Shown here: in pieces, positions 1 to 37,756 of the stretch
Position numbering within the stretch: position 1 is the first letter of the stretch
How the letters are laid out: every line of letters begins with the position of its first letter
Virus record (IMG/VR): IMGVR_UViG_3300027749_000251
Coordinates: 1 to 37,756 of that record
DNA length: 37,756 nt
Origin: a virus
Direction: 5' to 3' (one strand)
The notes under the pieces: generated by a model
What the model saw: the letters and a program-made list of their open reading frames with translations, nothing else
Told to the model about the DNA's origin: nothing
Databases searched by the model: none
Made by a program: the position numbers and the translations under genes

Positions 1-2090
<2,090 letters not shown>

Positions 2091-5071: not shown

Positions 5072-5932
5072 TTACTGTTTGTTTTTAAGTTGGTTTTTGT
5101 AGGCGAGAACTTTCGTAAAATCGCCTGTTTTTGCTGCATCTGCCCGCAACCGTTCCAAGGACGAATCAACCGTTCCGGACATAGCGCCGGTCCCAGAAAC
5201 TCTCCGTTCAGGAGGAGGAGGAGTTGATTTTTTCTTTTCCACAGTTATTCGGGTTTCTAATTTTGCTACAGCAAATGAAAACTGAACCGGATCTTTTAAC
5301 TCAGCTAGTTCCTTTGCTTTCTTAGGATTTTTTCCTAGTGCGTAAATCAGTTGTACGGGATTTTCGCTTCCCTGCAATAAAATTCCTTGTTGAGCAATTG
5401 AAAACGTATCGTTTACCAACGCCTCCGCTTCATCGTAATCAGTAGCGCCAAACGTCTGTTTGGAACTCGCATAATTATTAACCTTGGCTTGCCAGGCTTG
5501 TTGCTCTGCTTGCTGTTGCTGCTGAATTACTCGTTCACGATCCTCAGACTCCCGTTTACGGGCATACCATTGCTCCAACTGGGATTCGTACACATTAGTG
5601 TCAAAGTCACAAGTTTCCAGACTTGGCTTTGTCCCCAAGGTGACCTGTTCAACAGGATTTGCTGCCTTAATACGGTCCTGTAGCTCTCGGTTCTCGCGTT
5701 GAAGATCCCTGTTGCGCTTTCTAACGTCTCGCACCCATTGAGGGGCAGGTTGCTTGTCTTCTTCGTCTGGTTCTTCTCCAGCAATGGAAACAACAACGTC
5801 ATCTCCAAGTTCCTCCGGTTGCGTTTCCGAGTCCGTTTTCGGCTCAGGTTCTGTATGCTCAACGGGTTCACTCGGAGTTTCAATTTCCGGCACTTCAACT
5901 TCCAGGTCTTTGTCTTCAGGTTCGTCTATCAT
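5072..5932 (-). CDS. Scaffolding protein (P22 gp8-like)
   Basis: 286 residues, highly charged. The N-terminal 60 residues are acidic (EPEDKDLEVEVPEIE), a predicted coiled coil follows (RKRNRDLQRENRELQDRIKAA, QQQQQAEQQAWQAK), and the C-terminus is short and basic (YKNQLKNKQ), like the coat-binding tail of P22 gp8. P22 gp8 is 303 residues. Scaffold directs procapsid assembly and leaves the head before packaging. Its start overlaps the portal stop as ATGA (5929-5932), and the coat gene follows. Family assignment rests on composition and position more than on motif identity. Confidence 0.82.
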   Translation of the reverse strand: MIDEPEDKDLEVEVPEIETPSEPVEHTEPEPKTDSETQPEELGDDVVVSIAGEEPDEEDKQPAPQWVRDVRKRNRDLQRENRELQDRIKAANPVEQVTLGTKPSLETCDFDTNVYESQLEQWYARKRESEDRERVIQQQQQAEQQAWQAKVNNYASSKQTFGATDYDEAEALVNDTFSIAQQGILLQGSENPVQLIYALGKNPKKAKELAELKDPVQFSFAVAKLETRITVEKKKSTPPPPERRVSGTGAMSGTVDSSLERLRADAAKTGDFTKVLAYKNQLKNKQ

Positions 5933-8019
5933 GGTTGTGGGTTACTCTGCGGCATCGCAGGTGGTGGTGGTTGCTGCATTGGTGCAGCAGCAGGTGACTG
6001 CTGAATCCCGCCTTGCGGAATAAAAGAAGGCACTGCTCTCTGCACCATCTCAAGGTGGTTCAAATCCACCTTGGAAAGTGTCTCCAACGCTTTGGCGTGT
6101 TGCTCGTCCGCTTTGGCGGCAATCAGAACCGTTTCAGCCCTTGCCTTGATTGCTGCTGCCGTTTCTTTGTCTGCCGCCGCCATGATGTAGGTATTCTCCG
6201 GAGTAGGCGCCTGGTTCTGCATCTCTATTGCCATTTCTTGCTTCTCCATCTCGGTGGGCTTGACCACACCCATACGAAGCAACTGCTTCCGGAAGTATTC
6301 TCGCACATCACCAATGCCTTCTCCCTCCATGTTCATCATAATCATGGAAGAAAGCACCTTCAGCATCTCTGGGTCTTGGGTCATTGCCATCATGCCGGTT
6401 AACGACTTGACCGTAGACGTGCGCTTGCTGGCACTGGTAGGCCCAACCTCGACAATCACATCAAAGACTGCCCTGGTGATATCGTTCTCCATCTCCACTT
6501 CCCCAGTATTCTGGTTCATTGTGGGTTGCATGAGCTTGATCAACTCGACCTTCCCATTGCTGGCAATGCTTTTCATCTTCCGGTCGCTCTCGATGAACAC
6601 ATCTCGCGCCATTGACAACCAGATCTCGCCGGAACGCTTGATTGACCGGCCCATGTTGTCCATGTAGATGAAGCTCTGATTGCTCAAAGCATTCTGGATC
6701 ATATCTACTGCCTTGCCGGTAACGTGCGAGAGCATCTTCTCAGCGTTCTGACCGTTGCCCAGCACCTCCTGCATATCAATCTCGGTGATCTGTAGCAGTG
6801 CCGCCATCGCAGGGGGCGGGGTAGGCGACTTCGTGTACGCAATTGGCCCCGCGGCCTGCTGATTGCCGTTCATATCGGTCAACGGATTGACCAGCAGATA
6901 CGGAAAGTTCCGTAGGTTGTCTTCAGACCACATCACCTGGTGACCAGCAACCTGTTCAGGTGTAAAGATCGGCTTTTCAACTGACGAGATTGCACTGATC
7001 TCAGCCAGTTTGGACAACTGCATATTCTTCAGACGCTGAACGTCCTTTGCCAACCGAATATGCCCCATGCAACGCTCGACGTTGTCTACAAACCACCGTT
7101 TTCCGTATACCGGAACGATTGGGATGTTGTTTCCGGCCAGTACTCCGCAATCTTCCAGCACACTGTTGCCGGACATAATGTACTTATGGCACTTCTGCCG
7201 CTTGAGCTTCTTTTCCCGCACCTTTTTCCAGCCCAAATTCTTGAGCATGGGCCATTCGTTCTCCATTTCGTCGTCAGACAACGTCTTTTCCTCGCCCATC
7301 AGACTCTTCACATACGTCACTGTCTCGGAAATTTCCTCAATCCGGTAGTACTCGCACACATAAACAACGTCCGGAGTAAGCCAGTCGAACCGCAACTGCT
7401 GGATCGTCTTAGGCCAAGATGATGGATCATCGTCAAACTCCTCCCGATACGCCGCAGGAGTCATCGAATACAGTACAAAACACCGTTTAGCGTCCGATTT
7501 ATCGTACCGCTTCCCGTTCAAATCCCAGAAAACGCTACTATCCGCGTCATAAATCGGCTCAATCCGAATCCTCTGCCTCTCATCGTCCGCGTCCTCCGGA
7601 TAAGCATACTCAGTCCTGAGCCTCCAGGCGCCAATCCCGCCGGTGACCGCTTCCTCAAACGCATTGTCATACGCTTCCTGCGCCCCACTGTACTGCTCGT
7701 CCGCTCGATACAAACCAGCACAGGTATCAGCCAGCTTATCGTACTCTCCATCTTCCTTGGACGCAAAAGCTACCGTGATTCGATTATTCCGGTACTCATT
7801 ACACACTCGCAGTACACTCATGTGTACTTTATTCACCTCAAACCGAGGTTTGTTTTCAAACTGATCGCCCAGCGGTCCTTCCCACTGCGCTCCAGCTATC
7901 GAAGTAAAGCGCCGGTCCTGCAAACAGAGCAACCGTTCGTTACGAAGTGCTGCTTGAATCACATCAAATTCGCGCACCGCTTCCTGATGAATATCAGCTA
8001 ACTTCGTTTCTTTACTCAT
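5929..8019 (-). CDS. Portal protein (P22 gp1-like)
   Basis: 696 residues against 725 in P22. N-terminal features match the P22 portal family: LQDRRFTSIAGAQWEG, FEVNKVHMSVLRVCNEYRNN, and an EQYSGAQEAYDNAFEEAVTGG-type segment (about residues 105-130). The long C-terminal part is helical and ends in a Gln/Pro-rich tail. The portal forms the dodecameric DNA entry channel and docks terminase and the gp4-like adaptor. It follows TerL with a five-base gap and overlaps the scaffold start. Start ATG at 8019 has an ATTATG context with no Shine-Dalgarno. Confidence 0.93.
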   Translation of the reverse strand: MSKETKLADIHQEAVREFDVIQAALRNERLLCLQDRRFTSIAGAQWEGPLGDQFENKPRFEVNKVHMSVLRVCNEYRNNRITVAFASKEDGEYDKLADTCAGLYRADEQYSGAQEAYDNAFEEAVTGGIGAWRLRTEYAYPEDADDERQRIRIEPIYDADSSVFWDLNGKRYDKSDAKRCFVLYSMTPAAYREEFDDDPSSWPKTIQQLRFDWLTPDVVYVCEYYRIEEISETVTYVKSLMGEEKTLSDDEMENEWPMLKNLGWKKVREKKLKRQKCHKYIMSGNSVLEDCGVLAGNNIPIVPVYGKRWFVDNVERCMGHIRLAKDVQRLKNMQLSKLAEISAISSVEKPIFTPEQVAGHQVMWSEDNLRNFPYLLVNPLTDMNGNQQAAGPIAYTKSPTPPPAMAALLQITEIDMQEVLGNGQNAEKMLSHVTGKAVDMIQNALSNQSFIYMDNMGRSIKRSGEIWLSMARDVFIESDRKMKSIASNGKVELIKLMQPTMNQNTGEVEMENDITRAVFDVIVEVGPTSASKRTSTVKSLTGMMAMTQDPEMLKVLSSMIMMNMEGEGIGDVREYFRKQLLRMGVVKPTEMEKQEMAIEMQNQAPTPENTYIMAAADKETAAAIKARAETVLIAAKADEQHAKALETLSKVDLNHLEMVQRAVPSFIPQGGIQQSPAAAPMQQPPPPAMPQSNPQP

Positions 8020-8024
8020 AATCG

Positions 8025-9587
8025 TTAACTTGACCTAGCAAAAAAACTCTTTACAGGCAACAACGCAACACCGGCATTTCGCGCCCGCGCCTTGGCCTGT
8101 CCCGCTCGATGTAGCCCGCTTACTACCAAATAGCGAGTGGCATCCATCAAATGGTCGTGTTCCTTAACCACCTTCCCATTTGTGTCCCGCCGGTACAACC
8201 GAAATTCTGAAACCCAGTTGTTCATGCTCTTAAACACTTTCAACCGGCCAGTGCTCATCCTCTGCCACACATCGTACAAGCCCGTCTCGACCGCATTGTT
8301 GGCAACTGCAAGGTCCAATCCCAACGCCTTGTACCTCGAAAACAACTGCTGACCGTCTCCCTGCGCCCGTCCGCGACTCGCCGGATCAATCACCCCTGGC
8401 AGTCCAATCCCCCGCGCCCGAATTGCCTCCGCGTGAATTGCCGGTTCTGCCTGCCCCCTGTAGTGCTCCGAGTACAGGTACGCGCATCCACTATCCTGAT
8501 CCAGCGCAGCAAACACCGCGGCAGTCCGGTTCCAGCCCACATCCATCCCATAAGCCCTAGGCCAGTGATCCGGTATCTCAAAGTCTGCGACCACAACGTC
8601 ACTCTCCGGCACTGGATAAATTGCACCGGCACCCAACTGAGGCACGCCCTTGGAACGCGCATCCCGCTGGAACGGTGGAATCGACTGCCACAGTTCCTTT
8701 TTCTGCTCCGCACTTAGGTGCGGCACATCATCCCAGGTCGCCATCCCCACGAATTTCGACCCATCCGCACGCTCCACTACCTCCCCATCCTGCAAGAATG
8801 CCATCACCGTCTCACTCATCCCCATCAAAGGCGTGAACGTCAGCATCGTCATCCCGTCATTCGTCATCGTTCGCAGAACGCACTCCGTATACACATCTAG
8901 CGGAGGTTCCTCGTCCAACCAAATGATATCCTGCTCCGTTCCTTGAAACGCCTCCCGCCTTTGGTCGTAACTTTTAAATACCAACCGGCTTTCATCCCCA
9001 CTCTGGTGCCGCACCACCACAATTTCCAACGCCTCCGCTACGCCCGCCTTCGAGGTCGTCCGCAAAATATCCTCCTTGGGTATCAACCCAGTCCCGTAGT
9101 TCCCTGGGGCGCCCATTAGCTTCAACTGCAAAATATCACGGGTCGTCTTACCCGTGTCCCCCGCCGCCCAAGCCGAAATCCCCTTCTTGAACCGGCGCCC
9201 AGTCCACCACTCCGGATACCGGCCAGTCAAATGCAGTGCCAGTTCGTACCCACCAATCCCCTCGGTCTTCCCAATACGGTTCGCCGCCATCATCAACCGC
9301 TCACGGTATTTTGAACCAGCATTGAAAAATGCAATGTGTTTCGGGTACAACTCACGCCGAATCGGCCCCTCATCCGGATAGTACATCTGGATCTTCCTCT
9401 CCTTCGCCCGCCGCAATTTTTCCTCCAACGCCAACGCGAGCAGTTTCTTCAACTCCTCACCCTGGGGCGCAGGGGGCGCCTCCGGTGCAGCAAAAGCCTC
9501 CGGTGCCGGTATCACCTCCGGTTCAGGCGCCGGTGCCGCTTCAGGCACCTTCTTAGGACGTCCGCGCTTTTTTGGTGCCTCACTCAC
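8025..9587 (-). CDS. Terminase large subunit with N-terminal AT-hook
   Basis: 520 residues. ATPase: Walker A AANRIGKT (101-108), Walker B IIWLDEE (221-227), and a TFTP coupling-type motif near 250. Nuclease: YGMDVG (D349), DPAS (D401) and DHLMDATRY (D478, D482). It drives headful-type DNA packaging and cuts DNA at the portal. The GTG start at 9587 overlaps the upstream stop (GTGA). Residues 1-13 carry KKRGRPKK, a consensus AT-hook core (RGRP, 8-11), followed by a Pro/Ala/Glu-rich linker to about residue 42. This extension is not part of the usual terminase core and may bind DNA. The small terminase subunit is not clearly recognisable. Confidence 0.93.
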   Translation of the reverse strand: MSEAPKKRGRPKKVPEAAPAPEPEVIPAPEAFAAPEAPPAPQGEELKKLLALALEEKLRRAKERKIQMYYPDEGPIRRELYPKHIAFFNAGSKYRERLMMAANRIGKTEGIGGYELALHLTGRYPEWWTGRRFKKGISAWAAGDTGKTTRDILQLKLMGAPGNYGTGLIPKEDILRTTSKAGVAEALEIVVVRHQSGDESRLVFKSYDQRREAFQGTEQDIIWLDEEPPLDVYTECVLRTMTNDGMTMLTFTPLMGMSETVMAFLQDGEVVERADGSKFVGMATWDDVPHLSAEQKKELWQSIPPFQRDARSKGVPQLGAGAIYPVPESDVVVADFEIPDHWPRAYGMDVGWNRTAAVFAALDQDSGCAYLYSEHYRGQAEPAIHAEAIRARGIGLPGVIDPASRGRAQGDGQQLFSRYKALGLDLAVANNAVETGLYDVWQRMSTGRLKVFKSMNNWVSEFRLYRRDTNGKVVKEHDHLMDATRYLVVSGLHRAGQAKARARNAGVALLPVKSFFARSS

Positions 9588-9913: not shown

Positions 9914-10297
9914 TCAAAACGGTGTGTTCTCCGAGTCATCCTCGTCCTGGGTAAGCTTACCAGTCTTCTCCGGAGCATTCCCCAGCATCTGCATCATCTC
10001 ACCCACCACCCTGAGCTTACTCCGCTTCTCCCCATCCTTCTCCCACTGCTCCAATTTCAACCGGCCCTCCACATACACCGGCTTTCCCTTCTTTAACCAC
10101 TTCCCAGCTATCTCTCCCACCTTCCCAAACATCACCACATCAATAAATGTAGCCTCCTCCTTCTTCACACCATCCTGCGTCCAACTCCGGTTAATCGCCA
10201 ACCCAAACTCCGCAATCGTACTCCCACTCGGCAACACCTTCACATCCGGATCTCGCGTCAGGTTCCCTATTAACATCACTCGATTTAAATTTGCCAT
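9914..10297 (-). CDS. ssb: Single-stranded DNA-binding protein
   Basis: 127 residues with a bacterial-type OB fold: MANLNRVMLIGNLTRDPDV at the start, then LAINRSWTQDG, FIDVVMFGKVGEIA, and KGKPVYVEGRLKLEQWE. The C-terminus is acidic and ends in TPF, like the protein-binding tip (DDDIPF) of bacterial SSB. It protects ssDNA during replication and RecT-type recombination. It is placed with the late minus-strand genes, just before the packaging genes and away from the replication genes. The upstream gene ends 10 bases away. Confidence 0.93.
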   Translation of the reverse strand: MANLNRVMLIGNLTRDPDVKVLPSGSTIAEFGLAINRSWTQDGVKKEEATFIDVVMFGKVGEIAGKWLKKGKPVYVEGRLKLEQWEKDGEKRSKLRVVGEMMQMLGNAPEKTGKLTQDEDDSENTPF

Positions 10298-10306
10298 ATT
10301 ACTGTG

Positions 10307-10636
10307 CTATATAACTACTTCAGCTTCAATTGTTACTACGTCTCCTAAAAGTCCCTGCTTCTTACAAGCTCCCATAATCTCAGCTACCTTCACAGATAAC
10401 TGATCATCTGTCATCTCGCTTAACTCCAACTTCAACGGTTCATCCTTCATCCCCGCTATCTGAGTTGGCAAAACCTTATGCAACAACCCAACAAACGTCC
10501 GCGGGTCCGTGTGCGCCATCGAAATCAAATACTCCACTCCCCCAGCCTCCTCATACGCCTTCATAATGTCATCTCTCAACGACATCGCCATCTTCATACT
10601 ACCCAGGCGCCCGCCCGTCTTTGCTTTACTCGGCAT
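10307..10636 (-). CDS. First gene of the late transcript (109 aa), possible small-terminase-type protein
   Basis: ATG at 10636, no Shine-Dalgarno. It has a basic N-terminus (MPSKAKTGGRLGSMKMAMSLRDD), then a segment (AYEEAGGVEYLISMAHTDPRTFVGLLHKVLPTQI) typical of a widespread small phage protein often found near terminase genes, then an acidic C-terminus. The position, a few genes upstream of TerL with no other candidate, makes a small-terminase or packaging-accessory role possible, but the similarity is not specific enough to name it. It lies next to the unusual noncoding region starting at 10637, so transcription of the late genes may begin there. Confidence 0.6.
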   Translation of the reverse strand: MPSKAKTGGRLGSMKMAMSLRDDIMKAYEEAGGVEYLISMAHTDPRTFVGLLHKVLPTQIAGMKDEPLKLELSEMTDDQLSVKVAEIMGACKKQGLLGDVVTIEAEVVI

Positions 10637-10743
10637 CCCATCACTCTAAGAGGTACTGTCGTAAACGCAAGCACTTTATTTTTAGACCAAAACGCGAGGG
10701 TCTGGTGCATAGGGATATCTATGGAACGGGCGCGGGGGCGCAG

Positions 10744-10757
10744 GGGGGCGCGCCCCC
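10744..10757. repeat. 14-bp G/C palindrome
   Basis: GGGGGCGCGCCCCC is a perfect inverted repeat with no spacer. It lies just upstream of the 14-bp direct repeats and the alternating tract, on the side of the late genes. It could extrude as a cruciform or serve as a protein site; function unknown. Confidence 0.7.
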
Positions 10758-10780
10758 GCGGGTGTGCGGGCGTGCGCGCG

Positions 10781-10822
10781 CGTACACATAGGCGCGTACA
10801 CATAGGCGCGTACACATAGGCG
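10781..10822. repeat. Three exact 14-bp direct repeats
   Basis: The unit CGTACACATAGGCG occurs at 10781, 10795 and 10809 with no spacers. The last copy runs straight into the alternating pyrimidine-purine tract. The units are identical, so they are either recent slippage products or maintained binding sites. Confidence 0.85.
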
Positions 10823-10937
10823 CGTGCGCGTGCGTGCGTGCGTGTGCGTGCGCGTGTGTGCGTGCGTGTGCGTGCGCGTGCGTGCGCGTGCGTGCGTGTG
10901 CGTGCGCGTGCGCGTGCGCGTGCGCGTGCGTGCGTGC
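10820..10937. repeat. 118-bp uninterrupted alternating pyrimidine-purine tract (Z-DNA-prone)
   Basis: Every step from 10820 to 10937 alternates purine and pyrimidine, built almost only from CG and TG dinucleotides. Alternating CG/TG is the classical sequence for left-handed Z-DNA under negative supercoiling. The tract lies between divergent transcription units, where supercoiling would be highest if both are active. It encodes nothing plausible in any frame. Confidence 0.9.
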
Positions 10938-11176
10938 CCGTGGCGTGATGCGCGCCCGTGTGCGTGCGCCCGTGGCGTGATGCGCGATTGGAGCGCCGGA
11001 AAGGCACCTTAAAGCCGCGCCTGGAGGTGTGTCCGCTATGGATACCCTCGGAAGCGCCTGTAGGCCGCGTAAGGCCACTTTCTGTGCGATTGTGGGGCGG
11101 TTCCCGTTTGGTTTCCCGTTTGGTTTCCCGTTTCCGGTGCGTTTTCCCCTTTTTGCCCCTTTTTTGCCGAAACCTA

Positions 11177-11205
11177 TTGCGCTTCGCGTTTGGTTTCGGT
11201 AATAT
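11177..11205 (+). promoter_or_regulatory. Possible promoter for the 11216-12392 island
   Basis: TTGCGC (11177-11182) and TAATAT (11200-11205) are 17 bases apart, a sigma70-like arrangement with partial matches in both boxes. The first ATG of the island follows only 10 bases after the -10-like box, so a transcript from here would be almost leaderless. This is consistent with the absence of a Shine-Dalgarno. Confidence 0.35.
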
Positions 11206-11215
11206 TCCAGCGCTT

Positions 11216-11380
11216 ATGACACCTGAACCCTACTATTACGTTTGCGACACAACCTTTGTGCCCATGGGAGAAGAACCCGTTATCCTGTTGGGTGCAATGC
11301 CTTACAAAGAAGCCTTAGAAGCCTTAGCTTCTTTCAAGGCAACCGACGACGGAGGATACTACGAATTAATTGAAGCTTAA
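11216..11380 (+). CDS. Small acidic protein (54 aa), unknown
   Basis: ATG at 11216 (CGCTTATG context). The product starts MTPEPYYYVC, continues with FVPMGEEPVILLGAMPYKEALEAL and ends DDGGYYELIEA, a compact acidic sequence without transmembrane segments. A longer in-frame reading from 10958 runs through the repeat region and is not credible. It is the first of three plus-strand genes between the two alternating tracts. No family recognised; overall amino-acid composition is normal, which supports real coding. Confidence 0.65.
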   Translation: MTPEPYYYVCDTTFVPMGEEPVILLGAMPYKEALEALASFKATDDGGYYELIEA

Positions 11381-11401: not shown

Positions 11402-12136
11402 ATGACGACGCAAACTGATAACGTAGAAAACGGGATCGTCCTTTGGGCCGATTGGAACACGGTGGCAATCGCCACAACCGGAAGCACAAACGCGAAAACC
11501 GGAGACATGATCCAGATCTGGATTCTGGATCGAAACCTTCACCCTGTGGAAAGCATACGAACCGGAAAGGATTCAACCCTGCAGTGTGCAGGGTGCCCCC
11601 TTGCAAGCGGTTCTGGCTGTTACGTTTCGCCTTTGCCTTTGATGGCAATCTGGCGGAAGTTCCAGCGAAACGAGTATCCCCACCTAAACCCTTTTTCCCC
11701 TCAGTGGGGCACGTTTTTCTTTGGGAAAAGCGTCCGGTTCGGCGCTTACGGAAACCCATCTCTGCTACCGCTTTCCATTGTAGAAAGCATCGCAACCCTT
11801 GCAAAAAAATACACCGGCTACTTTCACAACTGGAAAGAGATAAGCAGCGAAGAGGCAAAGGCTTATGGACGGTTTTTCATGGCAAGCTGTGAGCCGTGGA
11901 ACGTCCAAAAAGCGTATAACCTAGGGCTGAGAACCTTCACTGTAATTCCAGAAGGCTTCTCCTCGGAAGGCTACGGGATTGAATGCCTTGCCGATAGCAA
12001 AGGCTTAACCTGCACGGAATGCGGGCTATGTGACGGCACGCAAAGAAGCGCAAGCCGTTCGGTCCCTTTGCCTTCCATATGGATTAAAGCACACGGATTT
12101 AAAACCCGCAAAGCGAATGCAACCCTCTCACGATAA
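11402..12136 (+). CDS. Cys-motif phage protein (244 aa), conserved type of unknown function
   Basis: ATG at 11402 (AACTTATG). Two cysteine clusters stand out: CAGCPLASGSGCYV (about residues 61-74) and CTECGLCDG (about 204-212). The pattern TGSTNAKTGDMIQIWIL, then charged residues, CxxCP and CYV is shared by an uncharacterised family found in many phages. The clusters could bind zinc or an iron-sulfur centre; neither can be decided here. It has no signal peptide. The gene stands between a 54-residue protein and a membrane protein in the island bounded by alternating tracts. Confidence 0.75.
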   Translation: MTTQTDNVENGIVLWADWNTVAIATTGSTNAKTGDMIQIWILDRNLHPVESIRTGKDSTLQCAGCPLASGSGCYVSPLPLMAIWRKFQRNEYPHLNPFSPQWGTFFFGKSVRFGAYGNPSLLPLSIVESIATLAKKYTGYFHNWKEISSEEAKAYGRFFMASCEPWNVQKAYNLGLRTFTVIPEGFSSEGYGIECLADSKGLTCTECGLCDGTQRSASRSVPLPSIWIKAHGFKTRKANATLSR

Positions 12137-12143
12137 ACGTTTT

Positions 12144-12392
12144 ATGGAATCCCTTGAATTTCAGCTTGGTTTGTACGCGGCAACTTTTGCGCACGCTTTG
12201 CTTGCATTGCCATTGATTGGCGCTCTTTACGCAATCGGCGAAACGGTCTTTGAAGAGCGAAAGAAGGTAAATCGCCGACGCTTCTCTTTCCGACGCTTCT
12301 TCCTCTGGGACGTTTCCTTTCGGAAGATAGGCGGAATTCACTTCCTGAAGGTTGGCAGGTTTGGTTGCAGCTTCTGGAAGCGCAAAAAGTAA
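12144..12392 (+). CDS. Small membrane protein with basic tail (82 aa)
   Basis: ATG at 12144 (TTTTATGG), chosen over the in-frame start at 12030 because that would overlap the upstream gene by over 100 bases. A hydrophobic segment, about residues 8-31 (GLYAATFAHALLALPLIGALYAI), is followed by a strongly basic stretch (ERKKVNRRRFSFRRFF) and a basic C-terminus ending WKRKK. This fits a single-pass inner-membrane protein with a positive cytoplasmic tail. Role unknown; superinfection exclusion or host takeover are possible for a small phage membrane protein but not shown. Confidence 0.6.
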   Translation: MESLEFQLGLYAATFAHALLALPLIGALYAIGETVFEERKKVNRRRFSFRRFFLWDVSFRKIGGIHFLKVGRFGCSFWKRKK

Positions 12393-12416
12393 ACCGGAAT
12401 CGATTCCAGTTCATCA

Positions 12417-12452
12417 GGGTCGACCTTTCACAGGGTCGACCCTTTTCTTTTC
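12417..12452 (+). terminator. Rho-independent terminator after the island
   Basis: A 9-bp perfect stem, GGGTCGACC (12417-12425) with GGTCGACCC (12434-12442), is followed by TTTTCTTTT. It closes the plus-strand island 25 bases after the last stop codon and keeps that transcription out of the downstream repeat region. Confidence 0.85.
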
Positions 12453-12607
12453 CCCAGAACGCGTTTAAAGGCGATTTAAAGCCTGTCTAACATCCCCTCC
12501 GCGGTATCCGCCTTGCCAGGGCTGGAAAACGTCAAGAATGACCCTTCCAGGCGCGGCATTGGCCGGTTCTCGCGGTGAATCAAAACCATTTTGCGTACAC
12601 GGGCGCT

Positions 12608-12671
12608 CATACGTGCGCATACGTGTGTGCGTGCGCATACGTGCGTACGCATACGTGCGTACGCGTACACG
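12608..12671. repeat. 64-bp uninterrupted alternating pyrimidine-purine tract
   Basis: Strict alternation from 12608 to 12671, mixing CG, TG, CA and TA steps with repeated CATACGTGCG and GTACGC words. It is less CG-pure than the tract at 10820-10937 but similar in kind. It lies downstream of the island terminator and immediately upstream of the G-quadruplex motif. Confidence 0.9.
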
Positions 12672-12684
12672 GGCGTACGTACGC

Positions 12685-12705
12685 GGGCGGGCGGGCGGGC
12701 GCGGG
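12685..12705 (+). other. G-quadruplex motif, five GGG runs
   Basis: GGG runs begin at 12685, 12689, 12693, 12697 and 12703, with one-base C loops between the first four. Four G3 tracts with single-nucleotide loops is the arrangement known to give very stable parallel quadruplexes. It lies between the second alternating tract and the iterons. Confidence 0.85.
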
Positions 12706-12761
12706 CGCGTACACGTGCGTGCGAGGGACGCGACCCAAACCGGAGAAAACCGGCACCTTTT

Positions 12762-12816
12762 ATAAGGGGACTCGACCATAAGGGGACTCCATAAGGGGAC
12801 TCCCATAAGCGGACTC
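12762..12816 (+). repeat. Four iteron-like 12-bp direct repeats
   Basis: ATAAGGGGACTC occurs at 12762, 12778 and 12791, and ATAAGCGGACTC at 12805. Start-to-start spacings are 16, 13 and 14 bp. Same-orientation repeats of this size with near-helical spacing are typical of initiator or regulator binding arrays. Confidence 0.8.
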
Positions 12817-12817
12817 G

Positions 12818-13170
12818 ACTCTGCACATCAAAAATCTGCACGATTCCTTCCTCTTCTCTGTAGCGCCATGAAATTTGCAGAGTTTGAGGCGCGACTCTGC
12901 ACCTCCTCTGCACGGTTTGCAGAGTCAGATGCAGAATTCATAAGTCATTGACGCCCAGGGCACTGCACTTCCTCTCTCTATAAATAAATATGTATATGTA
13001 TAAATATATATATATAGTGAGAGAGAGAGAGGTAGGGGTAGAGAGGTAGGGGTATATAAGTATATGTCTCTATATTTTGCAGAATTGCAGAGTTCTGATG
13101 TAAGTGCTTGTCGTTGTAAGGCGGAGGAGGTCTGCAAACGGGTGCAGAGTCGATGCAGAGTTTGCAGAGT
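12818..13170. repeat. TGCAGAGT box array (8 exact copies, both orientations)
   Basis: TGCAGAGT starts at 12876, 12918, 13086, 13143, 13154 and 13163 on the plus strand; the reverse complement ACTCTGCA starts at 12818 and 12894. Near matches (TGCAGAAT, CCTCTGCA) lie at about 12930, 13078 and 12905. The boxes flank the AT-rich stretch on both sides. The last three are closely packed. Confidence 0.8.
12977..13016. other. AT-rich stretch, candidate DNA unwinding element
   Basis: About 40 bases of nearly pure A/T (TCTATAAATAAATATG, then repeated ATAT), in sharp contrast to the GC-rich surroundings. It is flanked on both sides by TGCAGAGT boxes and followed by a GA-rich tract (13017-13052) with a repeated GGTAGGGGTA word. 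It is the easiest-melting site in the region. Confidence 0.6.
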
Positions 13171-15079: not shown

Positions 15080-15958
15080 TTACACCCAGTCATCCTTGTG
15101 CGCGGCGACCGGTTCCTCGACCGGTTCTCCAGGCGCGATTTCCTCGGCCCCAGGCGCGGGCGTCCGCGGGCGTTTTGGACTCGGCTTGGGACTCGGACTC
15201 GCCGCCGGTGGTTCCTCCGGAGCGGACTCGACCGGAGCGGACTCGACCGGCACCTCGATGATAACGGGACTCGGAATAAGCGGACTCGGACTCGGTGCTG
15301 GACTCGCCATAGGTGGACTCTGGACTCGCGCATTCAGTGCGGCGACAACAGATGGGACGGCACCCACAGAGGCGTTTGCGCCCCCGCCGCGGAAATCTTC
15401 GACCTCGTCCGCGGTGTGCATACCGTTCAGGACGTCCGGAGCGTACAGGCGCCCGAAAAAAGCCGCGGCACGGTAACGAAGCATGAGGTCCGGCATGGTT
15501 TTCCACTTGGACCCGTTCTTCTGATACCATCCCTCGGCTTTGGCCATTGCGATGGACGCCTGTGGTCCTTCGAGGACTTCGCCTCCGGACTTGTCATACG
15601 CCCATGCGACACAGATAGCGGACTCGCCTGTGCCTTCCACGCGAAACCGGAGCGGAGAGAACCGGCCACAGGTATTCAGGGCCGCGATAATGAAGGACGA
15701 GGACCATGCGGGGCGCCCGTGGATGATGTTAAGGTTCTGCATGACCGCGAGCGGACTCGCGCCAATGCGTTGAGACATTTCAAGAGCTATCAGGGCGTTC
15801 CCGATCTTGTCTTTGCCTCTGTAGGTTTCAGGCACCAGGTCTGAGCTAACAAGACAGAGTGCCATGCGTTGAGCGGACTCGAAGTTGGTTATGCTAGAAA
15901 AAGCAGAGTTGTTCTGCTGAATGGATTGAGGAGTGTGAGGGACTAGTTCGGTAGACAT
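15080..15958 (-). CDS. RecT-type single-strand annealing protein
   Basis: 292 residues from ATG at 15958 (CCTTATG); an in-frame GTG 33 bases upstream is less likely. RecT-family features: ALIALEMSQRIGASPLAVMQNLNIIHGRPAWSS-type core (about residues 53-85), then KWKTMPDLMLRYRAAAFFGRLYAPDVLNG and ADEVED. The family anneals complementary ssDNA in phage recombination with a partner exonuclease, here the RecE-like gene two genes upstream. The last 90 residues are a low-complexity Pro/Ser/Glu tail (SPSPLIPSPV, VESAPVESAPEEPP) that is not part of the core and coincides with dense GGACTC words on the plus strand. Confidence 0.85.
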   Translation of the reverse strand: MSTELVPHTPQSIQQNNSAFSSITNFESAQRMALCLVSSDLVPETYRGKDKIGNALIALEMSQRIGASPLAVMQNLNIIHGRPAWSSSFIIAALNTCGRFSPLRFRVEGTGESAICVAWAYDKSGGEVLEGPQASIAMAKAEGWYQKNGSKWKTMPDLMLRYRAAAFFGRLYAPDVLNGMHTADEVEDFRGGGANASVGAVPSVVAALNARVQSPPMASPAPSPSPLIPSPVIIEVPVESAPVESAPEEPPAASPSPKPSPKRPRTPAPGAEEIAPGEPVEEPVAAHKDDWV

Positions 15959-17134: not shown

Positions 17135-17332
17135 ATGAAACCAGGAGTAGTCCGGAACATGATTATGTCGCTAGACAAGCGGCGAAGAGAGGCTAAGTTA
17201 TCCCGCCGCAAGTGGTTAGCAAAGGCTGGAGTCGCTGAATCTACCTACTATAATTGGTTGAGAGAAATCTACACGCCCCGCGTTGTGACTCTTGAAAAAC
17301 TGAGGCAAGCCATCGATGGACCCGTTAAATGA
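17135..17332 (+). CDS. Small XRE-like HTH regulator (65 aa)
   Basis: ATG at 17135 (TTTTATGAAA), chosen over the in-frame start at 17039 because the latter crosses both palindromes and would read through the recE leader. The product MKPGVVRNMIMSLDKRRREAKLSRRKWLAKAGVAES reads as a Cro/CI-type helix-turn-helix: helix, then SRRKWLAKAGVAESTYYNWLRE as the HTH, with a short C-terminal helix (LEKLRQAID). No dimerisation or protease domain. It faces the RecE gene and heads the rightward early operon, so autoregulation through the adjacent palindromes is likely. The stop overlaps the helicase start (ATGA). Confidence 0.82.
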   Translation: MKPGVVRNMIMSLDKRRREAKLSRRKWLAKAGVAESTYYNWLREIYTPRVVTLEKLRQAIDGPVK

Positions 17333-18714
17333 CCCCCATATTAAGACCGTATCAGGTTGCTGCCGTGGAGTCTGTGAAGGATGCACTACGGAGCGGGAAA
17401 AAGGCGCCATTGTTAGTTGCTCCTACCGGTGCAGGAAAAACTGTGATGTTTGCCCACATCACTCAGAGTGCTCAGAAGAAGGGGAAACGAGTGCTGATTC
17501 TCACCCACCGGCAGGAGCTTCTGGACCAAACGTGCAGGAAACTCTCTGAGTTTGAAGTAGGGCATGGAGTGATCCTTGCGGGACGCACCGAGGAACTCAG
17601 TCAACTCGTCCAGGTCGCCGGTGTTCAAACTCTGGTGCGTCGGTTGAACCGGACTCTCCCACCGGACTTGATCGTAGTGGATGAGGCCCATCACGCGGCG
17701 GCAGGTAGTTGGAAACAGATTCTAACTCGGTTCCCAAACGCTAAGATTCTCGGCGTGACCGCAACTCCGGAACGGTTGGACGGCAAAGGACTCGGAGATA
17801 TGTTTGATGCGCTCGTCCGCGGACCAGAGGTAGCTGATCTGATCAGTGCTGGTTTCCTGAGTAAACCGAGGTACTTTGCGCCCCCAGGGGCATCGCTTGA
17901 CGGTGTACGGACCGTAGCGGGAGACTTTAACCGGAAGGACTCGGAAGCCGCGGTGAACCAGAGCACCATCACTGGCAGTGCAGTGGAGCACTACCGGAAA
18001 CTCTGCGACCGGCAACCGGCAGTCGCTTTTTGTGTGAGTTTGAAACACGCGGAGCAGGTCACCGCGGATTTCAACGCCGCCGGATACCGGTGGGCAATGA
18101 TCGACGGGACGATGACCGGCGAGCAACGCCGCGATGCGGTACGCCGGTTGGGCAGTGGCAGACTCGATGGACTGAGTTCCTGTGATATCATTTCAGAAGG
18201 ATTCGACCTTCCGGTAGTGAGCGTAGCCATCCTTCTACGCCCCACCCAGAGCACCGGCCTGTTTCTCCAGCAGGTGGGCCGAGTACTCAGACCGGCAGAG
18301 GGAAAGACCGGCGCAACGATTCTAGATCACGTTGGAAACGTGTTGCGGCATGGTTTTGCTGAAGATATTCGCGAGTGGAGTCTCGAAGGCGCTTCTCGGA
18401 AGAGCAGCAAACAGAAGGCGGCACTCACCAACCGGCAGTGTCCGAAATGCTACGGGATTAGCGCACCGGCACCGGCCTGTCCCCAGTGTGGACACTCGTT
18501 TGAGGTGAAGGCACGGGAGGTGGAGAAAGTGGACGGGACTCTGGAAGAGATTAAAGCGCAGGAAGCCCGCACCATAAAGCGGCAGGAGCAAGGAAAGGCG
18601 CAGACGCTGGACGATTTGATCAGAGTGGGAGTTGCCCGCGGCTACAAGAATCCCTCGGCATGGGCGCACCATGTGTACAGTGCTCGTAAAGGAAGAAGAC
18701 CACAGTACGCATGA
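17329..18714 (+). CDS. SF2 DEAH helicase with C-terminal zinc motif
   Basis: 461 residues. Motif I APTGAGKT (31-38), II DEAH (118-121), III TATPER (144-149), V SEGFDLP (289-295), VI QVGRVLR (315-321). A four-Cys zinc motif follows (C371, C374, C384, C387; CPKC and CPQCGH). The layout resembles UvrB/RecQ-type and phage RAD25-like helicases used in phage replication or recombination. The start overlaps the HTH stop and the stop overlaps the VRR-NUC start (both ATGA), so helicase and nuclease are probably made together. Confidence 0.92.
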   Translation: MTPILRPYQVAAVESVKDALRSGKKAPLLVAPTGAGKTVMFAHITQSAQKKGKRVLILTHRQELLDQTCRKLSEFEVGHGVILAGRTEELSQLVQVAGVQTLVRRLNRTLPPDLIVVDEAHHAAAGSWKQILTRFPNAKILGVTATPERLDGKGLGDMFDALVRGPEVADLISAGFLSKPRYFAPPGASLDGVRTVAGDFNRKDSEAAVNQSTITGSAVEHYRKLCDRQPAVAFCVSLKHAEQVTADFNAAGYRWAMIDGTMTGEQRRDAVRRLGSGRLDGLSSCDIISEGFDLPVVSVAILLRPTQSTGLFLQQVGRVLRPAEGKTGATILDHVGNVLRHGFAEDIREWSLEGASRKSSKQKAALTNRQCPKCYGISAPAPACPQCGHSFEVKAREVEKVDGTLEEIKAQEARTIKRQEQGKAQTLDDLIRVGVARGYKNPSAWAHHVYSARKGRRPQYA

Positions 18715-19095: not shown

Positions 19096-21699
19096 ATGGC
19101 TATCAATTTCGAGGCAATCAATCAGCAGGCATTAAGTTGTTGGGAATCATTACTTAGACTCTGGTTCACAGAAGGGCGCCTCATGGGGCGCGAATTTAAA
19201 CTTGGCTCACTGGCCGGTGAGCCAGGGCAATCGCTTTCAATCAACGTCGATACCGGAAAGTGGGCAGACTTCGCTCAGAACATAGGAGGAAACGATCCTA
19301 TCTCCTTTGTTGCCGCCAAGATGCATTCCGGCCAGTACGAGGCAGCAGTGGAACTGAACCGGCACTTGAAAGTGGATATGCCGGTGGAGGTGAAAGGACG
19401 CGAACCAGAGTGGACTGCCCTTGATTTTGCTCCTACAGACGCTCCGGAACCATTGGTGAGGCACTACACCTATGGCATTCCCACTGGACTTTGGCGTTAC
19501 TACACCGCGGACGGGAAGAATCTAATCGGCATTATTTGCCGGTATGAGACTTCAAACGGGAAACAAGTGCTGCCAATGACTTGGTGCCGGTCGCCAAAAG
19601 GAGACTCTGAGGCGTGGAGGTTCAAAGCGTTCAAGCGTTCTCGTCCCCTGTTCAACCTTCAGCGTCTGACCGATCACATTACAGCGCCGGTGCTGATCGT
19701 CGAGGGAGAGAAGTGCGCCGAGATTGCTCAGGAAGTGTTCACCGGCGCAGTGGTCACCACTTGGCCAGGGGGCGCCAAAGCGATTGGGCAGGTCAACTGG
19801 GACTCGGTACGCGGGCGCCGGATCACGATTTGGCCGGACAACGATGAGGCCGGTACGGGTGCCGCGGAAGCAGTGAAGGATATTTTATTGAAACAGGAAT
19901 GCACCGTTAGGATTCTAGTAATTCCTGAAGGTTTGCCGGAAGGATGGGATGTGGCAGACGCAATTCAGTCCGGATGGACCAACGCGAGGATCAAGCACTT
20001 TGTCCGAGATGGAGTTGATCCGGAGGCGCCGAAATCAACAGCACCGGCACCGGCGCCTGAGCCTCAGTTTGATTCGGAGGAATCACCACCGGATAATTTT
20101 GAAGAGGAACCTGAGCCATTCCGGATTCTGGGGCAATCGGACGGGAACTATTACTACCTGCCTAGGGACACTCAAGCGATTACGACACTGACGGCACGGG
20201 AGCACACAAAGCTCGAAATGCTTGGACTTGCATCAGCTTCGTATTGGGAGCGGACCTATCCAAGCAAGCAGGGAGCGGACTGGTTTGCCGCGGCGAACTC
20301 GTTGATCCAGAGAGCAAAGCGGAAAGATTACGATCCCTCTTTAATCCGCGGAAGAGGTGCATGGCTGGATGACGGGCGAGTGGTTTTCCATCGCGGAAAT
20401 TCACTGCTAGTTGATGGCGTCGAGCGTTCGCTCGGAGAGCATGATAGCCGGTGGACGTACAACAAAGGTAGGGCATTGCAAATCGAGATGAATGACCCGT
20501 TGCGCCCCGAAAAGACTCGCAGGATCATTGATCTGATTCAGTGCTTCCAGTTCCGGAATCAGCTTGATCATGCCCTGCTTGCTGGTTGGCTTGCACTTGC
20601 ACCGATCTGTGGCGCAATCGAATGGCGCCCCCACATCTGGTTAACCGGTCCGGCGGGATCTGGGAAAACGTGGATTCTCGAAAACATCGTTCGTCCGGTG
20701 CTTGGCAATACCGGCCTGTATGTGCAATCGGTAACAACGGAAGCCGGTATCCGGCAGATGCTTGGGTGTGATGCTTTGCCGGTGGTATTTGATGAAGCGG
20801 AAGCGGAACGGGATGTGGATCAACGCCGAATGCAGGCAGTGCTGATGCTTGCTCGTCAGGCGTCCCGCGAGTCTGACGGGCGCATTGCAAAAGGCACCGC
20901 ATCAGGACAGGCGATGACTTGGCACGTTCGCTCGATGTTCATGTTTTCCAGCATTGGCATTGCCGCAACGCAAAGAGCCGATTTAAGCCGCGTGACGGTC
21001 CTCGACCTGCTACCGGAGCACCAACGCAAGGTGGACCGGTTTCAGGAGGCTTTAACGATTTGGAAAGAGACACTGGCGCTTCCTCGGTTTGTCTCGGCGC
21101 TTCGATCTCGGTCGATCCACCTTGCTGCGACTATCGCGGCAAACGCAGTCGTGTTCAAAACAGCAGTGCTGGAGCACCTTGGGAATCAACGTGACGCGGA
21201 TCAGATTGGCAGTCTTCTAGCCGGTGCATACTCGCTTACAAGCTCAGGCATGATCACCGCAGCAAAGGCCGCGGAGTGGTGCGTGAAACAGGATTGGTCT
21301 ACCTACAAAGGCTCCGAGTTTGGGAAGGATGAAAGCCACTGCTTGCATCACCTGTGGGAAGCGAACCTGGTGGTGGACCTGAACGAAGGCGGGCCGGTGC
21401 GGACTACGGTCGCTGAGTTGCTCGTCCGGTCCTATGACGACAACTGGAAGTCAAACCGATCCGAGAACGCGAGACAGGCACTGGCTCGAATGGGCATAGG
21501 CGTCCGGCAGGAAGGGATCGATGTTGCGAACTCGCACAATGAGTTGAAGAAGATTTTTTCGGATACCCCGTGGAACGAAAAATGGAAGGATCAGTTGCGC
21601 CGGATTGACGGTTCATCAGATCAAGCCTGCACCCCCATAAATGGCGTTGGGAAGCGTGCAGTGCGGTTGCCAATACGCCTTGTACCAATGGAGAAATGA
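19096..21699 (+). CDS. Primase-helicase (Toprim plus P-loop ATPase), 867 aa
   Basis: N-terminal part (LAGEPGQSLSINVDTGKWADF, then GGNDPISFVAA) matches the region before phage primase cores. Toprim: VLIVEGEKC (199-207) and TIWPDNDEAG (244-253). A Pro/Glu-rich linker spans about 305-342. The C-terminal ATPase has Walker A GPAGSGKT (518-525) and Walker B VVFDEAE (563-569), followed by a VRSMFMFSSIG segment. One protein thus appears to combine primer synthesis and helicase activity for phage replication. No zinc finger is visible at the N-terminus. It overlaps the methyltransferase gene by ATGA. Confidence 0.88.
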   Translation: MAINFEAINQQALSCWESLLRLWFTEGRLMGREFKLGSLAGEPGQSLSINVDTGKWADFAQNIGGNDPISFVAAKMHSGQYEAAVELNRHLKVDMPVEVKGREPEWTALDFAPTDAPEPLVRHYTYGIPTGLWRYYTADGKNLIGIICRYETSNGKQVLPMTWCRSPKGDSEAWRFKAFKRSRPLFNLQRLTDHITAPVLIVEGEKCAEIAQEVFTGAVVTTWPGGAKAIGQVNWDSVRGRRITIWPDNDEAGTGAAEAVKDILLKQECTVRILVIPEGLPEGWDVADAIQSGWTNARIKHFVRDGVDPEAPKSTAPAPAPEPQFDSEESPPDNFEEEPEPFRILGQSDGNYYYLPRDTQAITTLTAREHTKLEMLGLASASYWERTYPSKQGADWFAAANSLIQRAKRKDYDPSLIRGRGAWLDDGRVVFHRGNSLLVDGVERSLGEHDSRWTYNKGRALQIEMNDPLRPEKTRRIIDLIQCFQFRNQLDHALLAGWLALAPICGAIEWRPHIWLTGPAGSGKTWILENIVRPVLGNTGLYVQSVTTEAGIRQMLGCDALPVVFDEAEAERDVDQRRMQAVLMLARQASRESDGRIAKGTASGQAMTWHVRSMFMFSSIGIAATQRADLSRVTVLDLLPEHQRKVDRFQEALTIWKETLALPRFVSALRSRSIHLAATIAANAVVFKTAVLEHLGNQRDADQIGSLLAGAYSLTSSGMITAAKAAEWCVKQDWSTYKGSEFGKDESHCLHHLWEANLVVDLNEGGPVRTTVAELLVRSYDDNWKSNRSENARQALARMGIGVRQEGIDVANSHNELKKIFSDTPWNEKWKDQLRRIDGSSDQACTPINGVGKRAVRLPIRLVPMEK

Positions 21700-36606: not shown

Positions 36607-37756
36607 TTAGTAGGTTCCGAATGAGTTTTGCGTAAGGACGTTGTCTCTGATTCCTGCTGCTGTAAACGCAGTTGCTGTAGCTGCTGTATTTGTTGCTGTC
36701 CCAACCAGTGTAAATGTAGTGGAAGTCAATACGCTGCCAACAGTCAATGTGTTTGGGGTAATTCCAGAAGAAATAGTCCCTCCAACAAGCAATCCAGCAG
36801 TTGTTCCAGTGCTTAATGTAACAGTGGGATTAACGCCTGCTGTCCATGTTCCAGTTGCTGAGAACAAGGCAGTTGTGTACATAGTGGCGTTATCCCACTC
36901 AACGTAATGCGCCACTGGATTTGTTACGAGTGCTGATGCTGTCTGAAACTGAAAAGGTGCATTAGTTGCTGAGTTTCCAAGAAGAGTTTGCCGTCCTGAA
37001 AATGTGTTTGTTTGAGTAGTTGCAGCAGCAAATCTGTAGCTTATTCGAACAACAGAAATAAGACTGGTTCCAACAATTATGTCTGCATTGGAAGCAGTAT
37101 TAAAAAATGCCATTACATAACCAGATTGGGACGACCCAAATCGAGTCATCCACATTCCATTTCGCACTGTGCCAGTGAACCACGCTGGTCTTGTAAAAAC
37201 AGCCTGTACACCAACAGCTCCAACAGTTGTGACTTCCCAAAAACCGTTTTGTTTTGTGTCACCCTGAAGCGTAAATGCAATAATGTCACCTACAACTATT
37301 GTGTAGCTATCCGCGCCAGTGAATACCCCTGTTGCCGTAACGGTAAACACATTTCCAACCATTATTCCCGCAAATCCAACATTAGTCTGTGCCTCAACCA
37401 TCCGCATCCCAACTCCGAGGTTGGAGATGGCAGATTGAGCGGTCGTAGAAGCAGTTCCCCCATTGGCAATCGAAACTGGAAGCGAAACTCCTGCGCCTGT
37501 AGCTCCAGTTGCTCCCGCAGTGCCAACGCCAGTTGCCCCCGTGGAACCATTAGTTCCGGTTGCTCCAGTGCTACCCACTACCCCTGTAGCGCCAGCTACC
37601 CCTGTCGATCCAGTTAATCCTGTCGATCCAGTTAATCCTGTGGCCCCAGCAGTGCCAACGCCGGTCGCGCCAGTCGCCCCAGCAGTGCCAACGCCAGTCG
37701 CCCCAGTCGCCCCAGCAGTGCCAACGCCAGTCGCCCCAGTCGCCCCAGCAGTGCCA
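36607..37756 (-). CDS. Giant collagen-like tail fibre, C-terminal part (starts at 2090)
   Basis: Continuation of the frame that begins at 2090. From 37756 down to about 37490 it reads collagen-like triplets (GST, GAT, GVG). A short segment [25 protein letters not shown] follows, a motif often seen just before the C-terminal domain of phage tail fibres, and then about 290 residues of Thr/Ser/Ala/Gly-rich beta domain with [28 protein letters not shown] and a final NSFGTY. This distal domain is the most likely receptor-binding end. Three bases separate its stop from the next gene. Confidence 0.9.
37655..37756 (-). repeat. 33-bp tandem repeat, right part
   Basis: Units start at 37655, 37688 and 37721, with the beginning of a fourth at 37754. 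The last 69 bases equal 1-69. The unit at 37655 carries variants (CCGGTCGCG) not seen in units 1 and 34, which limits the overlap to 69 bases. Confidence 0.9.

Follow-up and report, generated by a model that had tools for sequence, protein, structure and literature searches.

A long alternating, predicted Z-DNA-forming tract in the divergent control region of a tailed phage

The stretch of DNA analysed here (the window) is the complete 37,756-nucleotide IMG/VR virus record IMGVR_UViG_3300027749_000251. It encodes a P22-like portal, a large terminase and a single-strand DNA-binding protein (SSB), and the initial annotation, made from the sequence alone, was thus right to call it a phage genome; the phage is a tailed one. 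The packaging and structural genes form a leftward block with the portal (5929-8019), the terminase large subunit (TerL, 8025-9587, minus strand) and SSB (9914-10297, minus strand). The first leftward gene, g10307 (10307-10636, minus strand), encodes a 109-aa helical protein of phrog_11043, a small-terminase candidate by position only, for which a search for confirmation of this identity yielded none. The rightward arm, which carries a helicase (17329-18714) and a primase (19096-21699), opens with a predicted 54-aa reading frame (11216-11380, plus strand), followed by a gene for a Cys-rich, DUF7227-like protein of phrog_2554 (11402-12136, plus strand) and an 82-aa reading frame (12144-12392, plus strand) with a similar frame in the related phage L147. 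An intrinsic terminator-like hairpin with a T-run (12416-12453, plus strand) lies 3' of this DUF7227 cassette. Between the start of g10307 at 10636 and that of the 54-aa frame at 11216 there is a 580-bp non-coding gap.

Within this gap, positions 10820-10937 consist of 118 bp of strict purine-pyrimidine (R-Y) alternation with zero interruptions (tract 1). Read in Y-R phase the tract contains 31 CG and 27 TG steps and no other step, exactly as first described, and its plus strand is free of A. The earlier view of the tract as extreme is borne out by 40 simulated first-order Markov sequences of 37,756 bp, in which the longest alternating run was only 12-18 bp. To the left it is preceded by a shoulder (10770-10819) made of GCGTGCGCGCGCGTACACATA and 3.4 copies of the 14-bp unit GCGCGTACACATAG, where alternation is interrupted solely at the joins between units. 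Open reading frames run right across tract 1, since none of the three stop codons can occur in strictly alternating R-Y sequence; a coding role was considered and rejected, since these frames are a by-product of stop-free alternation and their ends and surroundings differ between the window and L147. Tract 1 is also asymmetric between strands, with 27 TG against 0 CA steps (26 against 1 in its L147 counterpart). As symmetric CpG decay should produce TG and CA in equal numbers, such decay does not explain the asymmetry.

Several further features surround the tract. A G+C-rich palindrome adjoins it (10728-10758, with the core GGGGGCGCGCCCCC in the window), recognised from sequence and alignment, and a G5/C5 hairpin beside the tract is retained in L147 and in L004, another close relative. 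The near-palindrome GCATAGGGATATCTATG (10706-10722), identical in the window, L003, L004 and L147, has the sequence of a likely operator; the 19-mer around it is restricted in IMG/VR to this group of relatives. Matches to sigma-70 promoters were no commoner than in shuffled sequences. A TTGCGC-17-TAATAT pair at about 11177-11205 has a counterpart in L147 and is too weak for a promoter claim. The only RNA families matched were repeat-driven microRNA and IRES models below the curated threshold. An imperfect inverted repeat (11006-11030 and 12541-12565, 17/25 positions, p=0.0035 against shuffles) brackets the DUF7227 cassette, its arms lying between the cassette and the two alternating tracts, the second of which is described below, and a similar inverted pair (10947-10964 and 12594-12611, 15/18) occurs at the tract edges. 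The DUF7227-like protein itself has seven invariant Cys and a confident AF2 model (pLDDT 86.7), for which no solved structural relative was found; homologues occur in phages of Mycobacterium, Gordonia, Klebsiella and Microcystis. A DUF7227-like gene lies near the tract in three tract families, and a general pairing of gene and tract was rejected because, among the best 80 DUF7227 loci, a long tract was present in the window's relative alone.

A second perfect alternating tract, absent from the initial annotation, was found at 12608-12671 (tract 2). It is 64 bp long, uses all four Y-R steps and, unlike tract 1, is mixed in the strand orientation of TG and CA. It continues at 12673-12723 as runs of 13 bp (12673-12685) and 19 bp (12705-12723) with GGGC repeats between them. 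Tract 2 lies 3' of the terminator-like hairpin and ahead of a putative iteron-type origin or regulatory array (12762-13170), in which four ATAAGGGGACTC-type repeats and nine CTCTGCA/TGCAGAG copies, in both orientations, are arranged around an AT-rich stretch; the equivalent site in L147 likewise has nine such copies. The distance from tract 2 to the cluster and its AT-rich stretch is 100-500 bp in both the window and L147, compared to about 2 kb for tract 1, and the GC skew of the window reverses its sign at 12-13 kb. On these sequence features it is plausible that the CTCTGCA cluster and AT-rich stretch constitute an origin, and possible that tract 2 has a role in it. Further into the rightward block, a 15-bp tandem repeat CCGGAGCGGACTCGA at 15217-15250 contains the core GGACTCGA of the repeats in the control region.

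The propensity of the tracts to adopt the left-handed form was computed with a B-Z transition model using published dinucleotide energies and a nucleation cost of 10 kcal/mol (PMC3024258). Of all sites in the genome, tract 1 is predicted to flip first, at a superhelical density (sigma) of -0.027 for a 37.8-kb domain and -0.036 for a 5-kb domain. The best site outside both tracts needs -0.041 to -0.044, and sites in shuffled (Markov-1) genomes with a 5-kb domain need -0.040 to -0.046. The prediction that the initial annotation had recommended as a check thus singles out tract 1 within the genome as the site most prone to the Z form, and its B-Z transition is predicted by the model to fall within physiological superhelicity. 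A complete flip of the 118 bp would absorb about 22 superhelical turns, calculated as 118 x (1/10.5 + 1/12) + 0.8.

Comparison with close relatives separates the alternation of the tracts from their sequence. L003 and the window share 9,258 bp of identical sequence, and the L003 contig stops within tract 1. L005 and L147 (TerL 96%, DUF7227 75%) have the two tracts at the positions seen in the window, though not with its sequence, tract 1 of L147 consisting of runs of 27, 91 and 29 bp and tract 2 of runs of 58, 65 and 34 bp. In L004 (TerL 96%), tract 1 consists of about four copies of a 32-bp unit with a sequence unlike that of the window. The initial annotation had named absence from close relatives as an observation that would refute it; comparable tracts are present in L147 and L004. 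The flanks of the tracts align well among the window and these relatives, and across relatives in which the tract sequence has changed completely g10307 is 92-94% and TerL 96-98% identical. Aligned tracts of the window and L147 differ by 56 transitions and 11 transversions, against 94 and 106 in the flanks (p=9e-8), a difference which restates the kept alternation, as in-phase alignment of two alternating sequences forces few transversions. The statement that such tracts are unstable in bacteria is thus only partly borne out: their sequence does turn over fast, but their position and alternation persist in close relatives. Further away, in L022 and L035 (TerL 71-72%), the tract lies between the g10307 homologue and TerL, a shifted and non-divergent position, and a comparable tract is absent from most TerL relatives near 72% identity, so that the tract is dispensable or replaceable over longer evolution. 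L022 (6568-6630) and L035 (575-640) have in common a GCGCGTATAAAAAAGAAAGTCGAGGTCCC-like stretch right after the tract, a possible promoter or binding site.

Comparable tracts in other viruses were sought by searching IMG/VR for a 60-bp G(C/T) array, with G(A/G) and G(A/C) arrays as controls. This pattern requires G at every purine, so that tracts like tract 2 go uncounted, and as IMG/VR is redundant, families were grouped by hand. The G(C/T) array occurs in only 64 stretches, 52 of mixed units and 12 of pure GT, compared to 57 for G(A/G) (3 mixed) and 11 for G(A/C) (1 mixed), the remainder of the controls being pure G or GA (mixed versus pure, p=8e-19 and 7e-6, respectively). Since pure-repeat controls are common and mixed ones rare, slippage alone fails to explain the G(C/T) arrays. 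Mutation after slippage is not easily the cause of the difference either, because G and A units are related by transition just as C and T units are. The possibility that contigs end at tracts because these are physical genome ends was rejected, since control G-run and GA tracts are also often found at contig ends.

Up to 10 kb was then fetched on each side of the mixed tracts and genes were called with one home-made caller. By this crude caller, which overlooked the DUF7227 gene, 16 of the 26 tracts with both neighbours called (one of the 16 being a pure GT tract included for comparison) lie in divergent gaps, 10 in tandem gaps and none in a convergent gap. The other gaps of more than 200 bp at the same loci comprise 14 divergent of 128, with 109 tandem and 5 convergent (Fisher test, p=1.3e-7). 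The bias persists after removal of duplicates (13/23 tracts, p=4e-6) and when gaps of at least 400 bp are compared with the tract length subtracted (12/21 against 6/58, p=5e-5); a first-pass comparison of unextended loci had given 11/20 divergent for mixed tracts against 1/14 for pure-repeat and control arrays (p=0.009). The location between divergent transcription units proposed in the initial annotation therefore holds for the window, with g10307 on the minus strand and 11216 and 11402 on the plus strand, and for these 16 of 26 tracts. In about half of the contigs with a divergent tract, the stretch examined has only that one divergent gap; in several phages this sole divergent gap has many leftward genes to one side of it and many rightward genes to the other. 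A tandem gap holds the tract in some 10 of the 23 families, of which three (L093, L098 and L137) have it one gene off the divergence point. Tract-bearing phages use at least three large-terminase families (phrog_2, phrog_15 and phrog_675). At all nine pattern-set loci where TerL was found by profile (about six families), the tract is 5' of the TerL operon and 0.8-4 kb from TerL itself, which is transcribed away from it. The opposite arm, where it could be named, is one of DNA metabolism: a primase in L340, an HNH endonuclease in L332, and a helicase and ligase in L339, at whose locus TerL was not seen.

We consider it somewhat probable that the tract, degenerate in sequence and prone to the Z form, serves the phage as a torsional buffer in its divergent control region. 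Negative supercoiling behind polymerases peaks between divergent promoters (PMC3024258), and tract 1 sits between the leftward packaging and structural block and the rightward early and replication block. Transcription of both blocks would lead negative supercoiling to accumulate in the gap, and tract 1, by flipping from the right- to the left-handed form and absorbing some 22 turns, would limit torsional stress that might otherwise cause melting, R-loops, and over-activation or stalling of promoters. Promoter activity would become supercoiling-dependent through flipping of the tract, and tract 2, which lies ahead of the next rightward block and next to the putative origin, may act likewise. 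The Z-DNA state in the cell, the benefit of torsional buffering and the promoters affected are what we infer here; the position of the tract, the loss of its sequence with alternation kept, and its recurrence in unrelated phages together fit a torsional buffer.

The main null explanation is that of simple repeats expanded by slippage in non-coding gaps and blurred by C-to-T transitions, alternation being a by-product and divergent gaps just tolerant of such repeats. Were the tracts the product of slippage alone, the order of their Y-R units should be periodic, and the database tracts of L088, L106, L138 and L118 are indeed clearly tandem. For tract 1 periodicity of unit order is weak (p=0.09 and 0.20 without gaps, p=0.01 with gaps), a modest internal duplication that indicates a contribution of slippage, and rapid sequence turnover and the frequent ending of contigs within tracts also agree with a tolerated repeat. 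In contrast, tract 2 of L147 and the tract of L022 are perfectly alternating and no more repetitive than shuffled Y-R units (gapped p=0.33-1.0), which indicates that alternation itself is kept. Mixed G(C/T) arrays outnumber mixed G(A/G) and G(A/C) arrays about 17- and 50-fold although pure repeats exist for both of these controls, the enrichment in divergent gaps withstands matching for gap length, and the strand asymmetry of tract 1 departs from symmetric CpG decay. Toleration of a slippage product is thus an unlikely account of the tracts.

Less probable still would be a replication element, with the tract as a part of the origin region (an unwinding aid, a fork barrier or an initiator-spacing element) and not a transcription device. 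It would accord with the skew change at 12-13 kb, with the proximity of tract 2 to the CTCTGCA cluster and AT-rich stretch in the window and L147, and with the replication genes that lie to one side in several phages. But a gene cassette separates the longer tract 1 from the repeat cluster, no CTCTGCA cluster accompanies the tract of L022 or L035 in the stretch examined, and GC skew tracks gene direction too. A structure-specific pac or cos-associated site heading the terminase operon, finally, would agree with the placement of TerL at all nine profile-found loci and with the chance that g10307 encodes a small terminase. Packaging signals are nevertheless expected to be recognised by sequence, and the tract has changed fully while g10307 and TerL have not, which disfavours such a site; tract 2 does not adjoin terminase genes, and a terminase arm beginning at the divergence point would account for the position too. 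A packaging site is accordingly very doubtful, and the replication pause, packaging and recombination options of the initial annotation are all less supported, given tracts that change while neighbouring proteins stay 92-98% identical. An assembly artefact or chimera, suggested by contigs that frequently stop in such tracts (L003 and L004 included), is hardly credible, as L147, which comes from a different sample, retains both flanks as contiguous, conserved sequence and independent assemblies yield lineage-specific tracts at the same locus.

For a torsional buffer, the occurrence of like tracts with other sequences at the divergence points of many unrelated phages suggests that such tracts manage local DNA twisting. 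Possibly, though we would not yet call it probable, unrelated tailed-phage lineages have convergently evolved a Z-DNA element of 60-250 bp, selected for alternation and not for sequence, which acts at the arm divergence point as a torsional fuse or as a switch between early and late transcription. It is a long-standing question whether Z-DNA has any function in bacteria or in the viruses that infect them, and one addressed mostly with engineered inserts. Such a convergent element, if real, would be the first natural Z-DNA regulatory element to be widespread among prokaryotic viruses, and natural tracts that keep alternation while changing sequence, and that recur at divergent switches, provide a directly testable Z-DNA system. 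An alternating tract could also serve as a simple genomic marker of the divergence point in uncultured phages. No paper describing Z-DNA tracts at phage divergence points was found in the mainly non-subscription literature searched. Prokaryotes in general have less R-Y alternation than expected (PMC4060949), so that these tracts are the more notable exceptions, a consideration that does not amount to a test.

Known systems resemble the tract in part. As in the twin-supercoiled-domain model of transcription-driven Z-DNA (PMC3024258), a CG/TG tract lies between divergent units and is predicted to flip at physiological superhelicity, while the phage tract is natural, far longer (118 bp) and recurs at the main divergence point. 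Phage iteron origins and divergent lambda-like control regions likewise combine palindromes, a terminator and a cluster of direct repeats in non-coding control DNA, but here the tract itself is no conserved binding sequence. Earlier work on bacterial Z-DNA relied for the most part on engineered inserts. Dinucleotide microsatellites (GT/GC) are similar in their two-base, low-complexity units, quick turnover and some internal duplication. They differ in that the phage tracts are mixed in unit order, not or weakly periodic in this lineage, and perfectly alternating, and in that equal-length non-alternating mixed arrays are nearly absent from IMG/VR. The poly(GT/AC) double-stranded DNA of DRT3 is likewise alternating GT/AC DNA, possibly in Z form, in a phage-bacteria setting; it is synthesised by a host defence reverse transcriptase and not genome-encoded (PMC13174585). 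A connection with the tracts was considered, and no linking evidence was found.

Relatives of the terminase in genome collections come from Proteobacteria, Acidobacteria, Bacteroidota and further groups, none of them above 70% identity, so that no host was assigned. At the ends of the window, the same 33-bp collagen-type repeat is found at 1-291 and 37643-37756, with an exact end overlap of 69 bp, and the reading frames at 36607-37755 and 3-2090 (both minus strand) resemble parts of one tail-fibre gene. The genome is therefore probably circular or permuted, and cut inside this repeat.
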